From a bacterium (GTDB taxonomy: Bacteria; Electryoneota; JAOADG01), in the NCBI GenBank assembly GCA_030247525.1, contig JAOTSC010000006.1, positions 1-43,248 on the forward strand: a stretch of DNA of 43,248 bases, given 5' to 3'. A program made the position numbers and the translations under genes. This document shows positions 26,937 through 43,248 of the stretch, one piece after another. The notes below the pieces were generated by a model, which saw nothing but the letters and a program-made list of their open reading frames with translations, ran no database searches and had not been told where the DNA came from. Every line of letters begins with the position of its first letter. The stretch's first letter is position 1.

Positions 26937-26953
26937 ATTTTCACAGCATTGGT

Positions 26954-26977
26954 GGTAGCCGCAGGCTTTAGCCTGCG
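26954..26977. repeat. Single REP palindrome
   Basis: GGTAGCCGCAGGC-TTTA-GCCTGCG, one A-type arm of the REP pair, just downstream of the DUF4159 gene. Confidence 0.85.
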
Positions 26978-27010
26978 TTACGGGTAGTTGTAAGTATTAA
27001 CAAACGCATT

Positions 27011-27084
27011 GGTAGCCGCAGGCTTTAGCCTGCGTTCATTGATATTCTCGGATGGTAAAACGCGGGCTAAAGCCCGCGGCTACC
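27011..27084. repeat. REP pair (BIME), left copy flanking the RAYT gene
   Basis: A 74-bp element starting GGTAGCCGCAGGC and ending GCCCGCGGCTACC. It holds an A-type hairpin (CGCAGGC/GCCTGCG) and a G-type hairpin (CGCGGGC/GCCCGCG) separated by a 26-nt spacer. It is identical, base for base, to 27614-27687. Confidence 0.95.
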
Positions 27085-27110
27085 AAGAAAATCTTATACA
27101 GGTTTGGCAG

Positions 27111-27605
27111 ATGGTGATAGAGAAAAGGCATCGACTCCATCGAGAATACTACACTGGCTACAAAATGATGTCCGTGACAATTTGTTGCCATGGAATGTTA
27201 AGCCAGTATTACAATCACGAGACTATTGGGACACTTATTCTTTTTCTATCGGAAGCATCTCTAAAACAAAATTGTATCGTACCGGTATACTGCTTTATGC
27301 CTGATCATTTACACTTTATGTTGGCTGGACAACAAGAGCAATCAGACCTTAAGAAGGCTGTCATTAACTTTAAACAAAAATCCGGTTATTGGTTCTCACA
27401 GAATGCTAAAGAGGTTCAGCTGCAAAAAGGATTTTACGACCACCTTCACTGGAAAGATCACAGTATTACAAACCACATCCGGTACATTTTAGAAAATCCG
27501 GTGCGAAAAGAAATTGTGAGTGAGTGGAATCAGTATCCTTACTCTGGATCGATTGGAGTTGATCTGTTCGATGTACTTGGCGGAAAACCAATTAACAAAA
27601 CGTGA
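27111..27605 (+). CDS. REP-associated tyrosine transposase (RAYT, Y1_Tnp/IS200-like)
   Basis: A 164-residue single-strand transposase of the IS200/IS605-like Y1 class. The HUH metal motif is H66-L-H68 in FMPDHLHFM, and the nucleophilic tyrosine is Y125 in HIRYILENPVRKEI. Upstream residues LHREYYTGYKMMSVTICC fit the family's first strand. RAYTs are known to bind and cut REP palindromes, and this gene is bracketed by two identical 74-bp REP pairs. The ATG at 27111 is used because earlier in-frame starts lie in the flanking repeat. All catalytic residues are intact, so it may be active. Confidence 0.92.
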   Translation: MVIEKRHRLHREYYTGYKMMSVTICCHGMLSQYYNHETIGTLILFLSEASLKQNCIVPVYCFMPDHLHFMLAGQQEQSDLKKAVINFKQKSGYWFSQNAKEVQLQKGFYDHLHWKDHSITNHIRYILENPVRKEIVSEWNQYPYSGSIGVDLFDVLGGKPINKT

Positions 27606-27613
27606 CACCGTTC

Positions 27614-27687
27614 GGTAGCCGCAGGCTTTAGCCTGCGTTCATTGATATTCTCGGATGGTAAAACGCGGGCTAAAGCCCGCGGCTACC
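27614..27687. repeat. REP pair (BIME), right copy flanking the RAYT gene
   Basis: Identical 74-bp copy of 27011-27084, beginning 8 nt after the transposase stop and ending 33 nt before the next gene. Confidence 0.95.
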
Positions 27688-27720
27688 AGCACTACCGAAG
27701 AGGAATGTAAAGGAAACGTA

Positions 27721-32756: not shown

Positions 32757-35138
32757 TCATCTCAGCAGAACAACTTTTTTGACCGCTTCAAAATCGCCGC
32801 TGCGCAGTTTCAGAAAGTAGACACCGGAGCTGACAAAATCTCCTTTGTTTGATTTTCCATTCCAGTTTGTTAGATAGGTTCCTGCTGGGTAGGGACCGAT
32901 TTGCTTATTAAAGACTTCGCGTCCTAGGATATCGATGATACACAACTCAGCAATGCCTCGCATCGGGAGAGTATAGGGGAGGATTACCGTTTGGTTAAAT
33001 GGATTGGGAAAGGGATCGCCAAGCTGGAAAGAAACTGGAAGCGCTGAAGATTCATCGACAATCGAAGAATAAGGTGGAATCGAATATTTACTGAAACAAT
33101 CTGCTAATGAACCTAAAGACATTATAGATAATAGTATACCTGACGAGTTTTCAACAGCAAATAAGTTTAGCGAGTGTGTTGGGGCAATGATTAATCCACG
33201 ATACTCAAATCGCTCGGGTAGCATTTCAAAAACGAAAACTCTACTGCGCCATCCTACTGTCATTGTTGCTTCATTAATATCGATGTAAATGTGTCCGCCG
33301 GGCTGCTGGGGTCCCAATTGTTCAAGCAGCGGCGTTAAAGTTCGATAGAAGTAAGGGGTTCCATCGGCGCGAATTCCAAACAACGAGTGGTCGTACAAAG
33401 CGAGAGTATCCAGATCAGTACAAAAATCAAAATATGCATTTTCATAGGCATGAGTTGGTGTCGTCAGTTGTTCGACAAACTGCCACCTCCCGTCGACTTT
33501 TCGATACCAGTCCAGTTTATTGCCTTCAAGCCTTCCAAAAACCAATGAATTATCTCGCCAGACGATTGGTTGCTTTAACGAATACATGTATGCATAGTTG
33601 TTATCGTAGACCAAGGAAGTATCCCATATTGCGGAATCGCCAATAATCGTGTAGAGGTCACAACGATTCGCGAGATTACTCCGACAAATAAGATTGCTTC
33701 CTCTAAAATAAAATGGCATCGGTCGTTGCGAACGTCCGGGTTGAAAGCGTAATGTATCGAACTGCCAGGAATTCCCATTTCGCGTACCGATCCGGATGTA
33801 ATTGGAGTCTCCGGGAACCCCGCAGGAAAAGAGTCGATTTCCATCGATGGCCCGTACACGAGGTGGTATCTTGACAAAATCCCACCGGTTCGTAATCGGG
33901 TTTCGTTCGATGAACATTCCCGAATCAGAACTAGATAGACCATAAATTGTTTTTAATATCACTCGATTTTGCTCGCGCTCCACAAGTTGAAGGGTTGAGC
34001 TACTCAACCCTTCACTGGGTAGAACCGAAAGACTGTTCGGTTGGTTATGGAACCAGAGCGTATCCAAGACGACCCGGTCGTTGCGAACGACTTTCTGCAA
34101 ACCGATGATTTGTCCACTTCTGTTATCCCAAATCCAACCATACCTTGTCCGAATGCTTTGAAAAGGTCCGGGATTCGAAAAGTCTAAGCCATATTCGGTA
34201 AAAGTATAGAGCGGCAAGGAATCAATCACGATCGGTGCAGTTACACTCGGCGACAGGCGAAAGAGAAAAGCGCTCGTCTGCACTGCTCCGCTGCCTGGAT
34301 ACCAACCTCCCCAACCCAAATACACACTGTCGGAAATCTCCTGTTCTAACCAAAACAAGGTTTTGGGTAGGGTATCGATACGGATAGCGGCTGGTTGCGC
34401 AGGATTAGACAATGACCAGCTTTGCCAAAGGTTCGCTTTAATTGTCACTAACGTATCGTTAAAAATTCGGGGAAAACCACTCGTAAGGCACGTATCTTGA
34501 AACACTCGTTGCGGCGGCGAAGCAGCAAGATCCCAAACAACCAGTTGATTTCTGGCGAACTTCGTTCCATAGGCGTATCTTCCGAGATAGCACCATTCAC
34601 AAACACCGCTATCGACGGCGACTTGGTTTAATATGCCTAATGTGTCCAGGGAAAGAATGTATTGCGAATAAAGTACCCGGTCGCCTACAATGACGGGGGC
34701 ATAATATGGACCGTATCCAAACCCATTATTCCCCAAGTAGTTACTATTGAAACTGATGGAATTAATAGTAGGCAACACCAATCCCGAACGTAGCGCGCCG
34801 TCATAAATGGGAGGATTATCGCCGTTCCAGTCAAATTTGGAATTCGGCCAACCGTTATAGATCCGGTTTCCGATGCGCAGCGGGATTCCCGAAGAGTAAG
34901 GAGGAATGGAAATGTGAAACAACTGTTCAAAGGAGTCGGGTGCCGCGACACGGAAAGCGATAAGCCCACCTCGGGTCGAAATCAGTACTGTATCGCGAAA
35001 CGAAATCCCCGACTGCATGGAACTGAATGTGTGATGAAGAAGCGTATCCCCTTGCCAATCGAAGTCGTCGCCCCAGCGCGGAGCGGCAGTTGCCGCTCCA
35101 CAAAGCAGAAATACGAGGACAATAAACGAACGATTCAT
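32757..35138 (-). CDS. Secreted protein with T9SS/FlgD-like C-terminal sorting domain
   Basis: A 793-residue exported protein. The signal peptide ends GAATAAP. The body (about 25-690) is beta-rich with propeller-like units but no enzyme motif. The last ~90 residues form a sorting domain: DPFPNPFNQTVILPYTLP, then LCIIDILGREVFN, NWNGKSNKGDFVSSGVYFLKL and a short basic end. In the FCB group such domains direct export through the type IX system and anchoring at the surface. I start at the ATG 35138 (a GTG 12 nt upstream is the alternative). Its 3' end DNA is nearly identical to that of the next upstream gene. Confidence 0.85.
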   Translation of the reverse strand: MNRSFIVLVFLLCGAATAAPRWGDDFDWQGDTLLHHTFSSMQSGISFRDTVLISTRGGLIAFRVAAPDSFEQLFHISIPPYSSGIPLRIGNRIYNGWPNSKFDWNGDNPPIYDGALRSGLVLPTINSISFNSNYLGNNGFGYGPYYAPVIVGDRVLYSQYILSLDTLGILNQVAVDSGVCEWCYLGRYAYGTKFARNQLVVWDLAASPPQRVFQDTCLTSGFPRIFNDTLVTIKANLWQSWSLSNPAQPAAIRIDTLPKTLFWLEQEISDSVYLGWGGWYPGSGAVQTSAFLFRLSPSVTAPIVIDSLPLYTFTEYGLDFSNPGPFQSIRTRYGWIWDNRSGQIIGLQKVVRNDRVVLDTLWFHNQPNSLSVLPSEGLSSSTLQLVEREQNRVILKTIYGLSSSDSGMFIERNPITNRWDFVKIPPRVRAIDGNRLFSCGVPGDSNYIRIGTRNGNSWQFDTLRFQPGRSQRPMPFYFRGSNLICRSNLANRCDLYTIIGDSAIWDTSLVYDNNYAYMYSLKQPIVWRDNSLVFGRLEGNKLDWYRKVDGRWQFVEQLTTPTHAYENAYFDFCTDLDTLALYDHSLFGIRADGTPYFYRTLTPLLEQLGPQQPGGHIYIDINEATMTVGWRSRVFVFEMLPERFEYRGLIIAPTHSLNLFAVENSSGILLSIMSLGSLADCFSKYSIPPYSSIVDESSALPVSFQLGDPFPNPFNQTVILPYTLPMRGIAELCIIDILGREVFNKQIGPYPAGTYLTNWNGKSNKGDFVSSGVYFLKLRSGDFEAVKKVVLLR

Positions 35139-35153
35139 AACCAATTCCACTTT

Positions 35154-38100
35154 CTATTTAAGCAGAATAACTTTTTTGACCGCTTCAAAATCGCCGCTGC
35201 GCAGTTTCAGAAAGTAGACGCCGGAGCTGACAGGAATCTGCGACGCATTCGTTCCGTTCCAACTCGCTAAATATTTGCCTGCTTGCAGATTACCCATCGT
35301 TCGATGAAACACCTCTCTCCCTAAACCATCGAAGATAATGTACTGAGTAACTCCAGCAGAAGGAAGCGTAAAGTGAAACTGCAAAACAGAATTGAATGGG
35401 TTAGGGTAGGGATTTCGGAGTTCAAATTGCAAAGGTAGCGCTACTTGCGTAGTTTGTCGGTTTCGAACTCGGTGAGTGACGAGTAAATCCTCCAACTCTT
35501 CAACCTTCCGAAGATTCGCAACAATGGCTTGATCGCGGAACGCGTCGCCGCGCTTGTTTTCCGGACCCATCACCGGGTCTAATTCGAGCATCGCAATCAC
35601 TGCAGCAACCGAATCCTCAAAACAGAGGGGAAAAAGCTGGAACTGCTGATAAGTTGCGTATGCTTCTTCCGGTTTATCGTGTAATAGTTCCAATAATGGC
35701 TTGTAATTTCGAACCACCGGAAACATATCCGTTCCTTCAAAGCGTGCCTGTAGGCTATCCCATAGTGTATAGTTTTGCGTGTAAGTCCAACCCCGACGTT
35801 CATTTACACCAAACAGTAATGGAACGGCATGCGCCCGCTGCGACCAAAGCAATGTTTCGTCGTTGATCATGTTCGACAACCGGGAAGCAGCAGTGGCATA
35901 ATCTCCCGTTGCGACATCTTGAAACATATCCATCGCTGAGTCGGCTCGTGGGTAGTCGATTGGCGCTCGAGTCAATCGGTTCCGATATAATTCATTCGGT
36001 GGAATCAATGCAATAAGATTAGTTCCATCATGTCCAGAAAATCTCGAACTGATGTCCTCATTCGTTCCCCACCAAACCCCGGTGAACTTGTATGCATCAG
36101 GGATGTTTTCACCATCGCACGGGTTTCGAATAACGTATTGATCTCGATATTCATTTTGGGGTCTCTCGACTGGATCGGTATAGTAGATGCTATTCCAAGC
36201 AATCGTTGGTGCTGGTGTATTTCCTTCCTCAGCGACAAAGTGATAATACTGTGCTGGCTGCAAAGATGTTAGAGGATCGTTTGTAGTACGTACGTTATCG
36301 AATATCCTGCTGCCCCGATAACCGGGGCGTCCGAAGAAGATTGGATTTGATGTCCAATAACTCAGAACGCCATTCGAGTAATTACTGTCGATATCGCATT
36401 CGGTAATGATAGGAAATGCATACTTCAGTAACATTCCATTCCCACGCAAGAGCGAATTGCTTGCGTTTTCACGTTCGGTCGATCCCGAGAATCGGCAGGA
36501 ATCGATTCGATTTCGATTCCAGTCGTTTAACGGAATGGAAGACAACTTAAGCGCGTTTGCATGCGTCATTCCAATCACGGTATCCCGCTCAAGCTTGAAG
36601 TTCGTGTTTATTAAATAAATCCCATTACAGGTATCATAGTCTATTACAGCCGATCGATTGTATCCGATTAACTTCGAGTGTTTCAAAATGAATGAGTTGC
36701 CATCGTTTAGAATCGGGTCTTTACCCAAGTTGCGAGCTACGATAAAATTGCTTGCTTGGGATAAAGAATGACGGTATTTTTTTATCAATGCTGAGTCAAT
36801 GTTGACGTAGGTCGATGGCGCGTTGGGAGTAATGTCGCGTTCCGCGAATATCCCAAACGAATAAAAAACTCCTTTACTGAAGGGATACATCTCGAGTCCA
36901 GTAACCGTTAACCTGCGATGTTTGATGTACAGCGACTTTGGAGCCAAATTGCCGGTGGGACCTCCCATGCCATTGCCGACGCCAATGATACGTAAATTAT
37001 GAAATGATACCGGGTTCGCCTCTTGATTGGAGTACCCGGTTAATTGCAGTCCGTAGATAGCCCCGTCGATCCACAGTTTTTCGAAACGGTTCTCACCAAA
37101 ATTTCCCGTTGGTTCAACAACCATTCCATACCAGGTTTTCGTAGTAGTATCGCAAACAAAGTTTCCGCTCGGTGAACTCTCTACCCAACGACCGTATCGA
37201 AGTCTAAACCACATGCTGTCTAATGCGCCATTATCATAGTTTTGGAACTGCAATAGATTGTAGTCGGGTGAGTCGCCAACCTGCAATGAACCTTTTAAAA
37301 TAAAACTGTCGGGATCGGTTTGGGTTTGCTGTGTTGCAATCCGCGACATGTTTGCAAACCAGATGTCTACTCCCGGTTCGACGTACAACACATCATTTTC
37401 GTCGACAACACACGTGGAAAAAGCTTGGTACTCCTCACCGACTAATGTGCCCGATAGGTGAATCCTGCCATCCTCTTCATTATTCGGGAATAATAAGTTC
37501 ATGTGCTCTGCTCGCCAGTTTTTTGCTATTGGAAGTAATCGCCGATTGCCGCCAAATGCGCCGATGTTTATTCTCGTACCATTCGCATCTCTTAGATCGG
37601 GGTCTCCAGCGTTGAATGCAGCGGAAGGGAATATTAAATGGAATCGGTACATCAAAAAATGTCGGGGTGTCGGATTGAAGAGATGGGGGTTCCCGTTGAT
37701 GTTAGTGCCTTGTTGAAAACCGTTTGTCAGTGTACTCCAGTCTTGGGTTGTATCTCGGTTACACCAAGCGATGTTGTATCGAACATTTGAATTTCCTGGC
37801 TGAACATCAAAACAGTGGTAAGGATTCCCAACATATACTGACACAATATTATCGTCGATTGTACCGTTTTCGGGAAAAGCAACACACTGAAAACCACCGC
37901 CGGTTCCTGTCTCATCATTTAGAACGGTGTTGTTCCTGATAATCGGTTCAAATGTTTGCGCAGTAGTAGTAATCGAAACCGCCATATTCTTGTTGTTGTA
38001 AAAAATGTTCTGAGCAAGTATGTGAGGGTACAAGGAGGAAGTAATTCCATTCCAAGACCCAAAGATTTCGTTAGCAAATATATATAAGGAATCGGGAATA

Positions 38101-41060
38101 ATTTCCGAAACGATTCGAATATTTGCATCTGTGTTGGAAATCGGTTGCGCACCGTTGGCGTAGAATCGACAGGAATTTACTTCGACTTTTTCAACTCCTG
38201 TGGTTATCGAAACTCCACTTTCATTATTCAACAAGAAGGAAGCGGCGCGCAAATGGATTTTGTGGTGACGGTTTTGATTTTGACCATCGATCAGTAAACC
38301 GGAGCTGCCATTTTCTTCAAACACAGGACCAGCACCGATGACACGAGTAGTATCGGGAAGAAGTCTGACCTTCTGACCGCTGGCACCTGTGACTAAAGTT
38401 ACTCCATACGCATTGGCGTCAATGGTTACACCATTGGAAATGTGCTTCGTAAAGTATCCACCTATGATTGAATCAAGGTGTACCACGCTTGATTCGCGAA
38501 AACCAAAATACTGGTATCTCGGTTGTGTGACATGCGGAAATTGGACTCCCGACAGATAGCAATTGGTAAGTTTTGCAAATCCGCCTGCTTCGTCGATCCA
38601 TACACCTGCATGAGCAGCTTGAAGAGTGGCATTTGCATAGATCGAATCACCTTCTAAAACAATCGTCGTTCCACCAAAATTAGAGCGTGGATACCCGCGT
38701 CCACCGGTAGATTGCACAAGTATTCCGTTCGTACCATTGGCGTAGATTTTACAACCATCAAAACGCACCGTGTGCCAACCTAATGAATCTCGAGTTGTAG
38801 AAGATGTTGCCCTTTCGTCAAGCATAACTCCATTATCGCTATTGCTATGAATTGCACCGCTAGCACAGTAAAGAGTATTTCCTTTGCCCAGCATATAGAT
38901 CCCATGATCATTGTTGTAGAATATCTCAGGAAATCCATAAAGAATAACTCTCGCTGGTGGGTTAGGAGGAAAACAAGGAATACTAGGTTCAGTTACCCAA
39001 AATTGTCCTTGGCTTGGAACAATGCTTATCCAATTGGAATCGGCATAGTCCGATTCCAAGCTTATACCGTTTCCGGTTAACGCTGAGTTGACAAACCTGT
39101 AACCTTCGTACTTTACACCACCGATGCTTTTCAGACGACAGTTCTTAAAACCGGAAATATTACTAGCGTCGGATTCGGTAAATCGGATACAACTATTCGT
39201 GTTGCGTGAAATGAAGAAACTCGATCCAGCATCATTCAGTAATGCAATTTGCACAGTGTCAATGATTGTTGATGATCCGGTACTTGGAGTAACTAAGATG
39301 CCAGAAGTAGCGTTACAATTGATAGAAGTTGATACGGTTCGACCATGATTATTCCCCACATAGTGAGATTCAATCAAAAGATCGTGGTTGTTATCGGTAA
39401 TCTCTATTCCACAGCGATTGCTATCGATAGCACACCCAACAACTTCCAAACGACCCGGATTAAAGGGGAATCTGTCGTCAGTTAACACAGAGTCGTTTAT
39501 TCGGATTCCCTTTCCCCGAATTGCAATACCTGCTAGTGCGTTATTCCCAATGCCAACGTCAAAAAACCTAATTTTATCAAGAGAGTGTCTACCAATTTCT
39601 ACATCTTGTGGCGTTGAAATTCTCACGCCATGTCGCTCATCAGCTTGTGCCAATGGACGGTTCAAAAGGGGTAAGCCACTGAACTGATTAATACCGCAAT
39701 TCTGGATAAATGTGGGAAAAACCCTTGATCGACTTAATGGATAAAATTGTGTTGCCCCTAATGCTAAGTCACGTTCAAAATCAAACACTGTTCCATCACC
39801 ATGAAATTCTGACACATCATCCACTGAACATAAACGAATACCATTGTTGAACACAGAGTCTATGTAGCAGTTAGAAAAGTCAATGTGAAATGTTCCTCCT
39901 TCCAGAACAAATCCATTAGATTGTGAAGTAAGATTTTCCGTTCTCAATCGTCCAATATTTGTCAAACTGCTCTTAATCACACAAAACGAATCAGGTCCAA
40001 AGATTGTTCGACTGCTTTGATTGCGTGTTCGAAGTCGAATACCATCAAGTGCAGTATTTCGAATTGCAAGATCTTGTAATTTAATCATAACTCTTGTTTC
40101 ATCGATTCGTATACCACACCCTGTAAGTGATGTAATCTCTTGAATCGTATGGTCGTTATGATGTATGTCGACATCGATATTACAAAGACTTCGAATACTT
40201 TTTATCCCGTTTCCACAGTTTTGAATTAGAGGTAACCCGGGATAGTTTCCTCTTATGATCAATTGATATTGATTCTGTCCAGTCCCTCGCGAAAGGTTTA
40301 TCGCAGACCCTTGATCGTCTTCCAACTCACTGCCAGGGGAATACCCAAAGTTCTCAATGTGAATGTTCTCCGCTAATATACCAGTGGGATGAAAGTCGTC
40401 CGGACCGCTTAATCGGATTCCATCACTATTTTGTGTGTCATTTTCTTGCAAAGTGCCTTCGATACGCGTATTAGATATTCTGGAAACAGTATCTTCATTA
40501 AGAATAAATAATCCCTGATAAATGATACCTGTAATTGGAATGCGTCTAGCCCAACAATGATCCATAAGAAGTTGTGAACAGTTACCACTCACGATAAGCA
40601 TCCCTTCGTCAGGATCTGATGAGCCGATTCGATCAAAGCTGCATCTAGTAAGTAAGGCTCGTCCGCGATGAGTTTGTGAAAAATCTCGTACTATTATCCT
40701 TCCCGCGGTTCCATTTTCAAGAGTAGGTCGAAAAAAAATGGAATCCTCCTCTTCACCATTTGCAGATAAGGTTACACCAATCAACTCTAAAATCGAACCA
40801 GGCGCCATAAATATCTGACATCCAGCATGAATTGTAAGACTGACTTCATCCTGAATCTGTTCATTTGCACAAATCGTCAGATGACCATTTAAAGTTACCG
40901 TTTCATCGCCTTGCCATTCGAGAGATAAATTAGTAATTGTTTGATCTCCGTATACAAGTTGAGCAAAACAATCAGTGACATACGAACTGAGTGACAAAAG
41001 CAACACAACTGTTAACCGACCGATAACGATTAATCGGGTAACTTTAATATTATGTTTCAT
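35154..41060 (-). CDS. Giant right-handed beta-helix protein with T9SS/FlgD-like sorting domain
   Basis: About 1968 residues. AAAGGAG decides the start at ATG 41060, followed by a signal peptide ending DCFA-Q. Residues about 60-1165 are a right-handed parallel beta-helix with recurring short asparagine/glycine-rich turns (NNGIRL, NDNGVML, NGTNGILV) and the typical closing INIGAFGG. A second helix-like region, opening with another LSGTLVGEEYQ unit, covers about 1190-1665. Then come a helical, TPR-like stretch (about 1690-1870) and the sorting domain from ELRNPYPNPFN to the end. Such proteins bind or cleave polysaccharides or act as adhesins; no catalytic residues can be named. The next gene downstream (32757-35138) is probably co-transcribed. 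Confidence 0.88.
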   Translation of the reverse strand: MKHNIKVTRLIVIGRLTVVLLLSLSSYVTDCFAQLVYGDQTITNLSLEWQGDETVTLNGHLTICANEQIQDEVSLTIHAGCQIFMAPGSILELIGVTLSANGEEEDSIFFRPTLENGTAGRIIVRDFSQTHRGRALLTRCSFDRIGSSDPDEGMLIVSGNCSQLLMDHCWARRIPITGIIYQGLFILNEDTVSRISNTRIEGTLQENDTQNSDGIRLSGPDDFHPTGILAENIHIENFGYSPGSELEDDQGSAINLSRGTGQNQYQLIIRGNYPGLPLIQNCGNGIKSIRSLCNIDVDIHHNDHTIQEITSLTGCGIRIDETRVMIKLQDLAIRNTALDGIRLRTRNQSSRTIFGPDSFCVIKSSLTNIGRLRTENLTSQSNGFVLEGGTFHIDFSNCYIDSVFNNGIRLCSVDDVSEFHGDGTVFDFERDLALGATQFYPLSRSRVFPTFIQNCGINQFSGLPLLNRPLAQADERHGVRISTPQDVEIGRHSLDKIRFFDVGIGNNALAGIAIRGKGIRINDSVLTDDRFPFNPGRLEVVGCAIDSNRCGIEITDNNHDLLIESHYVGNNHGRTVSTSINCNATSGILVTPSTGSSTIIDTVQIALLNDAGSSFFISRNTNSCIRFTESDASNISGFKNCRLKSIGGVKYEGYRFVNSALTGNGISLESDYADSNWISIVPSQGQFWVTEPSIPCFPPNPPARVILYGFPEIFYNNDHGIYMLGKGNTLYCASGAIHSNSDNGVMLDERATSSTTRDSLGWHTVRFDGCKIYANGTNGILVQSTGGRGYPRSNFGGTTIVLEGDSIYANATLQAAHAGVWIDEAGGFAKLTNCYLSGVQFPHVTQPRYQYFGFRESSVVHLDSIIGGYFTKHISNGVTIDANAYGVTLVTGASGQKVRLLPDTTRVIGAGPVFEENGSSGLLIDGQNQNRHHKIHLRAASFLLNNESGVSITTGVEKVEVNSCRFYANGAQPISNTDANIRIVSEIIPDSLYIFANEIFGSWNGITSSLYPHILAQNIFYNNKNMAVSITTTAQTFEPIIRNNTVLNDETGTGGGFQCVAFPENGTIDDNIVSVYVGNPYHCFDVQPGNSNVRYNIAWCNRDTTQDWSTLTNGFQQGTNINGNPHLFNPTPRHFLMYRFHLIFPSAAFNAGDPDLRDANGTRINIGAFGGNRRLLPIAKNWRAEHMNLLFPNNEEDGRIHLSGTLVGEEYQAFSTCVVDENDVLYVEPGVDIWFANMSRIATQQTQTDPDSFILKGSLQVGDSPDYNLLQFQNYDNGALDSMWFRLRYGRWVESSPSGNFVCDTTTKTWYGMVVEPTGNFGENRFEKLWIDGAIYGLQLTGYSNQEANPVSFHNLRIIGVGNGMGGPTGNLAPKSLYIKHRRLTVTGLEMYPFSKGVFYSFGIFAERDITPNAPSTYVNIDSALIKKYRHSLSQASNFIVARNLGKDPILNDGNSFILKHSKLIGYNRSAVIDYDTCNGIYLINTNFKLERDTVIGMTHANALKLSSIPLNDWNRNRIDSCRFSGSTERENASNSLLRGNGMLLKYAFPIITECDIDSNYSNGVLSYWTSNPIFFGRPGYRGSRIFDNVRTTNDPLTSLQPAQYYHFVAEEGNTPAPTIAWNSIYYTDPVERPQNEYRDQYVIRNPCDGENIPDAYKFTGVWWGTNEDISSRFSGHDGTNLIALIPPNELYRNRLTRAPIDYPRADSAMDMFQDVATGDYATAASRLSNMINDETLLWSQRAHAVPLLFGVNERRGWTYTQNYTLWDSLQARFEGTDMFPVVRNYKPLLELLHDKPEEAYATYQQFQLFPLCFEDSVAAVIAMLELDPVMGPENKRGDAFRDQAIVANLRKVEELEDLLVTHRVRNRQTTQVALPLQFELRNPYPNPFNSVLQFHFTLPSAGVTQYIIFDGLGREVFHRTMGNLQAGKYLASWNGTNASQIPVSSGVYFLKLRSGDFEAVKKVILLK

Positions 41061-41617
41061 CGAATACTCCTTTCGTTGTTGAACAAACATCTGTTCCATG
41101 GCTTGGCAGTGTTCAATTAGAGGTTCAAAGGTTGATGATGCTTTAAGTAAAAGAGTAATGAGCAAGTGTTCGCTTTAATGCGAACATAAAGTTTGGAAAG
41201 TTTCCGCAGGATTTCACATTAGAACTTAAGAAACAGTACCAAATCTTCAGGTTTAACACTGCTTATGACCCGTTAACAAAACAGAACCGTCTCATCAGTA
41301 CCGTTAAGGTAAGAAGAGTTATTCAATCACGCAATGATTTGTGTCTATTTTTATAAATATTCATAAACTATTGTTATCGCGAACCTTGACAGTTCAATCG
41401 GGCAAACTAACGCTCCAATTCAGATCATCTTCACGGAAACTGGATTCAATTTATTTGATGCAACCACCTGGTCATTCTTGTTTAGAAATGTTTGCCGCGT
41501 TCTCCGCCCACCCCGGTCAGAATTATTTTTTCTGCAATGTTGACCATTTAACCCATGACGGCGATGACGACAGTGACGGCACTTTTGTCGTATTCATAAT
41601 TTTCTTTCCGTTATCAC
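41061..41617. other. Intergenic region upstream of the beta-helix gene
   Basis: It must contain the beta-helix promoter. A + strand frame at 41341-41688 runs through the downstream terminator and shows no family, so I do not call it. Nothing else is recognisable. Confidence 0.4.
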
Positions 41618-41726: not shown

Positions 41727-42785
41727 ATGAAACCAACAACCGAACTACAATCAACCCGAAAACTGCTGCTGGAAATGTTCACAACATCGCGCGGTCATAA
41801 CCTAGTCGACAGCGGTTGCGCCTATGGCTATTCGTCAGACCACAACCAACGCTTGGGATTAGATCGGCAACCATTTCTACTGAAAAGGTAATGGGAAACC
41901 GGGTATCGCGGTAAACACGACAAAGGAGTTCACGTCGGTTTTTTAGTCAACACGTTAAAATACATTGAAGCATTTATTAGTGGCATCCACGAACCACTAC
42001 AAACCGCTTGCGACAATAATTTTGTCGGGAAATCGTATCCCAAGGATAACCTATACTGTTACATCGATGGTGGCTTTTACAGCAAGGGTAAGTCGGTTTG
42101 CGACCGACATACAATTCGTCGCGAAGTGATTGAAGACCCGATTATAAAACAGGTAGCGCAAATCGTAGACAGTACAGTGATAGCTGATCGACTAGCTGCA
42201 CGTATCGAAGCATTCCTGCAAGTTCAATCAAGCGATAACAGCGATCTTAAACGCTTAGAACGCCAGATTGCTGACAACCAGTTAAAGATTGATCGCTTAT
42301 TCAATTTGGTCGTAGAAGCTGGCATCGACAACGACACAGCAATTCCCAAGATTAGGGAACTGGAAGCCGATAAGGTCCGTTTGATGAAATTACTGCAAAA
42401 AGAAGAACAGACTGCAACAAGGCAAGTTCAGATTCCCAGAGTTGCCAGGGAAGCCGTGGACTTTATGAAGGGGTTTCACAAATACTTCGCGAAGGCACCG
42501 ATACAGGAACGAAAACAACTGATCCGACACTTCATTCAATCCATTCGTGTCAGACCAGAAGACCGACAGATTGATGCCATTTTAACGAAAATTCCGACGA
42601 CCGATCCAACCTTCTTACAGGTGGTAAGGTCGTCGGAACAAGAACTTAGAAGCACTTCCGGCAGTGCAAAAAGTAGCGGGGGAGCCATCTTCTCTGCAGT
42701 CACACGCTTAGAGTACTATACGTCTATATCTTTACAAGAGTTACACAACTTTGATAAGCGTAGTACGGGTGTGTTTTTAGGGTAG
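41727..42785 (+). pseudogene. Interrupted frame: phage-like N-terminus followed by large serine recombinase C-terminus
   Basis: From ATG 41727 one frame reads to TAG 42785 with a single in-frame TAA at 41889-41891. The first 54 residues (LLLEMFTTSRGHNLVDSGCAYGYSSDHN) recall a small phage/plasmid protein type, and its apparent continuation follows the stop. From about 42040 the text becomes the recombinase zinc-ribbon (GGFYSKGKSVCDRHTIRREV) and then the coiled-coil and C-terminal region of large serine recombinases (LKRLERQIADNQLKIDRLF, ERKQLIRHFIQSIRV). The resolvase catalytic domain with its serine is absent, so no integration activity is possible. The downstream part could be re-initiated at GTG 42126. 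Confidence 0.75.
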
Positions 42786-42845
42786 CTTTTAGCATCTTAT
42801 TCGACTTCTGTGACACTTGATCACTTCCATCTTCCCACATCAATT

Positions 42846-43248
42846 CTATCGCTTTCGTGGCACAATGATCAAATCCTCACCTTTGCGTGAAGACGTTTTA
42901 CTGTTGATACGGCGACACGAATCGACTACGATTTGATCGAAGCCATGATACAAGTCCCGGATGAACCCCGTATTCGAGTTAGTCATCACGACTTTGCAAC
43001 CAATCGACAAAAGACGTTCAAACTCAATTCTCAGATTGATTTGGTCTCTTACACCGAAACGGAACTGCGAGTACAGATAGTCGTCATTGTCAAGATCTTC
43101 GGGGTGATAAGGTGGATCCAAAAAAACAAAATCATCTCGTTCAGCATTTACATGCAGTACCCCATGATAATCTCCTGACAAGATTTGAATCCCCTGCAGT
43201 GACAAGTGAGCATTCAGTAGTGAACGTTCGTCGCAAATCACTGGATCT
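42846..43248 (-). CDS. D12-class DNA adenine N6-methyltransferase (Dam-like), C-terminal part
   Basis: The frame is open to the right edge, so only the last ~134 residues are seen. The methyltransferase catalytic motif is FVFLDPPYHP (DPPY), preceded by ILSGDYHGVL. The D12-family tail follows: CKVVMTNSNTGFIRDLY and RRINSKTSSRKGEDLIIV. It would methylate adenine using S-adenosylmethionine. It stands next to recombinase debris, a usual setting for a restriction-modification or phage/orphan methylase; the partner, if any, lies outside the window. Confidence 0.9.
   Translation of the reverse strand, partial: DPVICDERSLLNAHLSLQGIQILSGDYHGVLHVNAERDDFVFLDPPYHPEDLDNDDYLYSQFRFGVRDQINLRIEFERLLSIGCKVVMTNSNTGFIRDLYHGFDQIVVDSCRRINSKTSSRKGEDLIIVPRKR

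Follow-up and report, generated by a model that had tools for sequence, protein, structure and literature searches.

The closest described relatives of the locus studied here are the RAYT genes and their REPs. In the gammaproteobacterial RAYTs surveyed by Nunvar (2010, PMC2817692), GTAG-footed REPs directly flank the gene and one third of the RAYTs lie in BIMEs; the same work described BIME-2 on both sides of E. coli rayT. In Pseudomonas fluorescens SBW25, the inverted REP doublet, or REPIN, is the unit, REPIN clusters adjoin the RAYT, and ordered clusters are made of tandem near-identical REPINs (Bertels and Rainey 2011, PMC3116915). The E. coli TnpA-REP protein, with Y115 as the catalytic residue, acts on the REP and not on its complement (PMC8266576). 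In the cited RAYT literature, the REPs at the flanks are for the most part described as inverted; a gene with one REPIN per side agrees with that description, and its REPINs form a direct repeat as well.

We analysed a 43,248-nt stretch of bacterial DNA (the window) in which, as in the REPtron of E. coli K-12 (rayT/yafM), a RAYT lies between REP doublets that have the same orientation and a common spacer sequence. The features of the locus, and one further REPIN in the window, are as follows.

26953-26979, plus strand (the RAYT orientation): single (solitary) REP, a 27/27 match to the REP at 27010-27036, with an ssDNA hairpin of -8.4 kcal/mol
26995-27003, plus strand: possible RAYT 3'-end remnant, ATTAACAAA, also present at the RAYT C-terminus (9-nt exact match, shuffle P = 0.014)
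27011-27085: left REPIN, the same as the right one, made of REP(+) 27011-27036, a 22-nt spacer 27037-27058 and an inverted REP 27059-27085
27111-27605, plus strand: RAYT / TnpA-REP gene, 164 aa, with HuH motif H66-L67-H68, catalytic Tyr Y125 and Asn N129
27614-27688: right REPIN, 75/75 identity with the left REPIN, starting 8 bp past the RAYT stop codon
4636-4704, minus strand: further REPIN, with REPs of the same family and a different spacer, between two genes, 80% identical to the 75-mer

The two flanking REPINs are 100% identical, in direct orientation, and 603 bp apart from start to start. The first-pass annotation had reported an identical, same-orientation pair of 74 bp; identity and orientation are as it described, and the length is 75 bp. 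Each copy consists of two close, inverted, GTAG-footed palindromes, the arrangement that defines a REPIN or BIME, with a GGTAG foot and a hairpin in each REP, the 22-nt spacer between them, and both ends of the repeat at REP feet. The hairpin stem is perfect (CGCAGGC-TTTA-GCCTGCG, or a CGCGGGC variant), and the 75-bp REPIN is predicted to fold as single-stranded DNA at -29.6 kcal/mol (z = -8.3). In the window there are 11 occurrences of the hairpin core, counting both strands and allowing up to 3 mismatches, compared to 0.14 expected from shuffling. The solitary REP had not been mentioned previously; with it, the left flank comprises a REP plus a REPIN and the right flank one REPIN. The 9-nt match at 26995-27003 hints weakly at a RAYT 3' remnant in the left flank, and a chance match is conceivable. 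The window thus differs from E. coli K-12 in its 100% identical copies, its single REPIN per side with one extra REP, and its perfect-stem REPs; in MG1655, 55-nt copies across rayT are 85-91% identical, and 101-nt copies stand in tandem downstream.

The RAYT is apparently intact, judged from its HuH and tyrosine residues and the TnpA-REP fold of its structural model. Its likely start is the ATG at 27111, since the longer frame from the TTG at 27009 merely reads across the left REPIN. We confirmed the earlier observation that HLH and the active tyrosine are kept: the HuH motif is H66-L67-H68, and Y125 (in RYILENP) aligns with Y115 of E. coli; H66, H68, Y125 and N129 are shared by all 32 sequences of an alignment. 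The protein scores 28.3 bits against Pfam Y1_Tnp, above the cut-off of 23. Its sole NCBIfam match is NF047646 (REP_Tyr_transpos), at 68.1 bits (E 7e-19, model positions 5-146 of 146), which falls short of the curated cut-off of 80. By this model the protein is a divergent member; the value of 80 bits serves for naming, and the protein still belongs with the RAYTs by its fold, flanks and motif. In a Foldseek search with an AlphaFold2 model (mean pLDDT 88), the best match was 4er8, E. coli TnpA-REP with a REP hairpin (E 3.5e-8, TM 0.67), which outscored every IS200/IS605 transposase, and identity to the E. coli protein over the structural alignment is 16%. The locus resembles IS200/IS605 elements (IS608, ISDra2) in the HuH-Y1 fold and in end hairpins read on one strand, but differs in having no multicopy element and no tnpB, and in its GTAG-footed REPs, Y...N motif and best structural match to TnpA-REP. 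Searches of viral contigs found no relatives of the RAYT, and a PHROGs search returned one weak match, of unknown function.

The host genome is a 3.59 Mb draft in 305 contigs. A genome-wide search for second copies found one RAYT of this kind, and the 75-mer at two sites only, both of them RAYT flanks. The next-best full-length matches to the 75-mer are at most 82% identical, with differences mostly in the spacer, and the 22-nt spacer occurs nowhere else in the genome. The REPs themselves are repeated elsewhere, as is characteristic of RAYT flanks: there are 54 REP-like matches genome-wide, compared to 0 for a reversed control pattern. At least 16 other distinct REPINs are present, a lower bound drawn from searches and fetched loci, and none of them has the spacer of the RAYT flanks. 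This distribution differs from that in SBW25, where REPIN populations are large, conserved and dispersed, while the exact sequence of the window REPIN is found only at the RAYT. It also differs from that of an IS200/IS605 element, for which several near-identical copies of the whole element per genome are expected; here there is one RAYT, and the flank element is present twice, both times at the RAYT.

The host genome also holds a MITE-like unit of ~120 bp in seven dispersed copies, up to 97% identical and in unrelated surroundings (C3:9773, C33:18576, C68:2084(-), C86:11409, C230:4054, C114:6607(-) and C126:4579(-), the numbers after C denoting contigs), each consisting of a REPIN with a spacer of its own flanked by short, imperfect terminal repeats (CTATCT...AGATAG). 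Dispersed REPINs with a common spacer were considered as proof of RAYT action in trans, and this was rejected, as all seven lie inside this separate unit.

To see how common the bracketed layout is, we compared the flanks of RAYT relatives, 80 of which had been fetched by protein alone with flanks disregarded; 73 loci, including that of the window, had both flanks. A direct flank-to-flank repeat of at least 45 bits is present at 39 of the 73 loci. Inverted matches reach this threshold at 13 of the 73, and outscore the direct match at just 2 (nominal sign test 8e-10, for loci that are phylogenetically non-independent); at 80 bits, 20 loci have direct repeats and 0 inverted ones. Among controls, 1 of 122 same-contig comparisons and 0 of 73 cross-locus flank comparisons reached 45 bits, so the flank repeats are locus-specific. 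Whole-genome searches showed that the full flank element is restricted to the two RAYT flanks in Ca. Scalindua arabica, a Zixiibacteriota MAG and bacterium STD1_36, and thus, with the window genome, in 4 of 4 genomes tested. Bracketing of this kind is nothing unusual: more than half of the related RAYT loci have it, as does E. coli rayT (PMC2817692). Direct-repeat bracketing is a recurrent trait of RAYT loci across many bacterial phyla, and the window locus is a clean example of an already known arrangement. In two of the relatives (L128 and L167), the 3' part of the RAYT coding frame contains REP sequence, and the matched span of each also has a stop or frameshift; this is reminiscent of the REP insertions described in genes of subclass 2.4 (PMC6006769).

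The number of REP units beside a RAYT differs between related loci that can be compared directly. Compared with its syntenic counterpart L166, the Ignavibacteria locus L155 carries an additional REPIN, placed exactly in front of the REP foot 5' of the RAYT, and one further unit 3' of the gene. L162 is nearer to L155 than L166 is, yet has one downstream copy as in L166, which makes the downstream change in L155 a gain; upstream, the change is unpolarised, as the L162 contig begins at the gene. In Bipolaricaulota, L154 and L165 are 96% identical over 3.6 kb, and REP units beside the RAYT in L154 are absent from L165. Similarly, the number of units beside E. coli rayT varies among genomes. Pieces of the RAYT gene lie within the repeats at L093 (3' end) and at L094 and L113 (5' start), which echoes the capture of rayt 3' ends in BIMEs (PMC2817692). 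Together, these observations speak for copying in situ, with the RAYT staying where it is. In several E. coli strains, the yafL-flhA interval carries a HicA/HicB toxin-antitoxin pair, or HicB alone, where most have rayT.

The RAYT/REP pair was probably acquired horizontally, as judged from three observations. First, among 38 same-phylum genomes there are no REP matches at E 0.001, and the best RAYT is 37% identical. Second, the two closest RAYTs in the relatives search come from distant genomes (G102 and G124), both of which also have similar REPs. Third, the GC content of the RAYT is 39%, compared to 50-55% for neighbouring genes. A donor search with the 75-mer among 147 relatives gave matches to single REPs alone, none of them in the same phylum. 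No close relative of the window genome has the locus, and the synteny of the neighbouring genes is broken in relatives; the duplication at the window site is therefore not polarisable. Homologues of the downstream gene in the same family and phylum were considered for an empty-site comparison, and have no DUF4159 neighbour, leaving no informative empty site. On the 3' side of the best RAYT relative in G102 (L032:1400-1500), a REP plus ~30 nt is in tandem direct repeat; on the opposite flank there is an inverted REP.

The suggestion of recent activity made in the first-pass annotation is reasonable for the flanks: a genome-unique 22-nt spacer is identical in both copies and the repeat ends at REP feet, which argues that the REPIN pair was recently copied or homogenised. 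We consider it likely that the locus is a REPtron, probably of horizontal origin, in which the REPIN beside the RAYT was recently duplicated to the other side, or the two flanks were recently homogenised, with no move of the RAYT. As inferred from its family, the RAYT would nick and rejoin GTAG-footed hairpins as single-stranded DNA, so that RAYT-adjacent REPINs would be copied, gained and lost in place; one REPIN would recently have been duplicated over the unmoved gene, or homogenised between its flanks. That the copy was the work of the RAYT itself, and not of replication slippage or RecA gene conversion, is our inference, and the trace of identical copies is equally expected from either of the latter. 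Host recombination could thus account for the locus with the RAYT as a passive bystander: slippage or RecA unequal exchange in a BIME array would make the direct copies, and gene conversion would keep the flanks identical. Tandem direct arrays flank several RAYTs (in steps of ~114 bp at L133, in 101-bp units in E. coli), and the pieces of RAYT ends found in repeats are what tandem duplication would yield. However, the repeat ends at REP feet in the window, L131, L151 and L130, and 46% of repeat boundaries in 37 pairs lie at a REP foot compared to 19% of random positions, an excess of which conserved REP ends alone could explain part. We regard purely host-driven recombination as a possible, though not a likely, origin. 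The doubling of one REPIN by misassembly is barely credible, even in a draft of 305 contigs, since unique sequence directly adjoins both copies and the same layout occurs independently in dozens of assemblies, complete E. coli genomes included.

Mobility of the entire BIME-RAYT-BIME cassette would require that cleavage of the same strand at two direct REPs free a single-stranded circle, carrying the RAYT and one REPIN, that reinserts elsewhere. Given the strand specificity of TnpA-REP (PMC8266576), with direct copies the substrates at the two ends do fall on a single strand, and the low GC of the RAYT relative to its neighbours is consistent with an arriving cassette. Moreover, genomes assigned to different phyla have a REP-RAYT-REP unit in common in unrelated surroundings: between L100 (Aerophobetes) and L101 (Syntrophaceae), identity is 79% over a span that begins at about the foot of the upstream REP and ends just beyond the downstream REP, and L098 and L124 have the gene and 3' REP in common at 82%. 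The simple reading of such units would be horizontal transfer, in which RAYT catalysis and ordinary recombination are not separable by sequence. Against cassette transposition, the window genome has a single RAYT copy, within-genome RAYT pairs of relatives are 42-60% identical and so are not recent copies, and circle insertion alone would not render the spacers of the target and donor REPINs identical. The earlier proposal that the whole cassette moves within the genome is not supported: the RAYT is present once and the flank element twice, and in the two syntenic comparisons REPs were gained or lost with the RAYT in place; recombination of the cassette as a unit is possible, as one E. coli strain has no rayT between yafL and flhA, only three tandem direct 99-bp BIME units, a difference of unpolarised direction. 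We consider cassette transposition at the window locus improbable. Equally doubtful is its broader form, in which direct REPIN copies would be the functional ends of a multi-phylum RAYT group, a single-stranded REPIN-RAYT circle would spread the gene between phyla and regenerate a REPIN per side, and ‘domesticated’ RAYTs would be self-mobile at low frequency.

The bias of many phyla to direct, RAYT-restricted REPIN copies is a more interesting result than the single locus, and bears on the persistence of REPINs and RAYTs and on the question of RAYT self-movement. PMC2817692 stresses inverted single REPs in gammaproteobacteria, whereas our survey finds direct, locus-specific, spacer-sharing copies in hosts of many phyla, and suggests a regularity unstated in the cited literature, namely that such copies are direct and not inverted. 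The confinement of the full element to the RAYT in all four genomes points to the RAYT locus as the site at which REPINs are copied. With two identical copies and one gene, the window locus offers a clean substrate for excision or copying assays.

Elsewhere in the window, a truncated D12-class adenine methyltransferase (Pfam PF02086) lies at the end, at 42846-43241. The adjoining ORF (42126-42785) resembles by eye the C-terminal part of a site-specific recombinase, with a sub-threshold Pfam match, and 42126-43241 is possibly another mobile or defence region. On the minus strand, 32757-41165 encodes two large secreted-looking proteins of 797 and 2003 aa with a near-identical C-terminal tail (SGVYFLKLRSGDFEAVKKV-LL-), which resembles a type IX secretion sorting domain.
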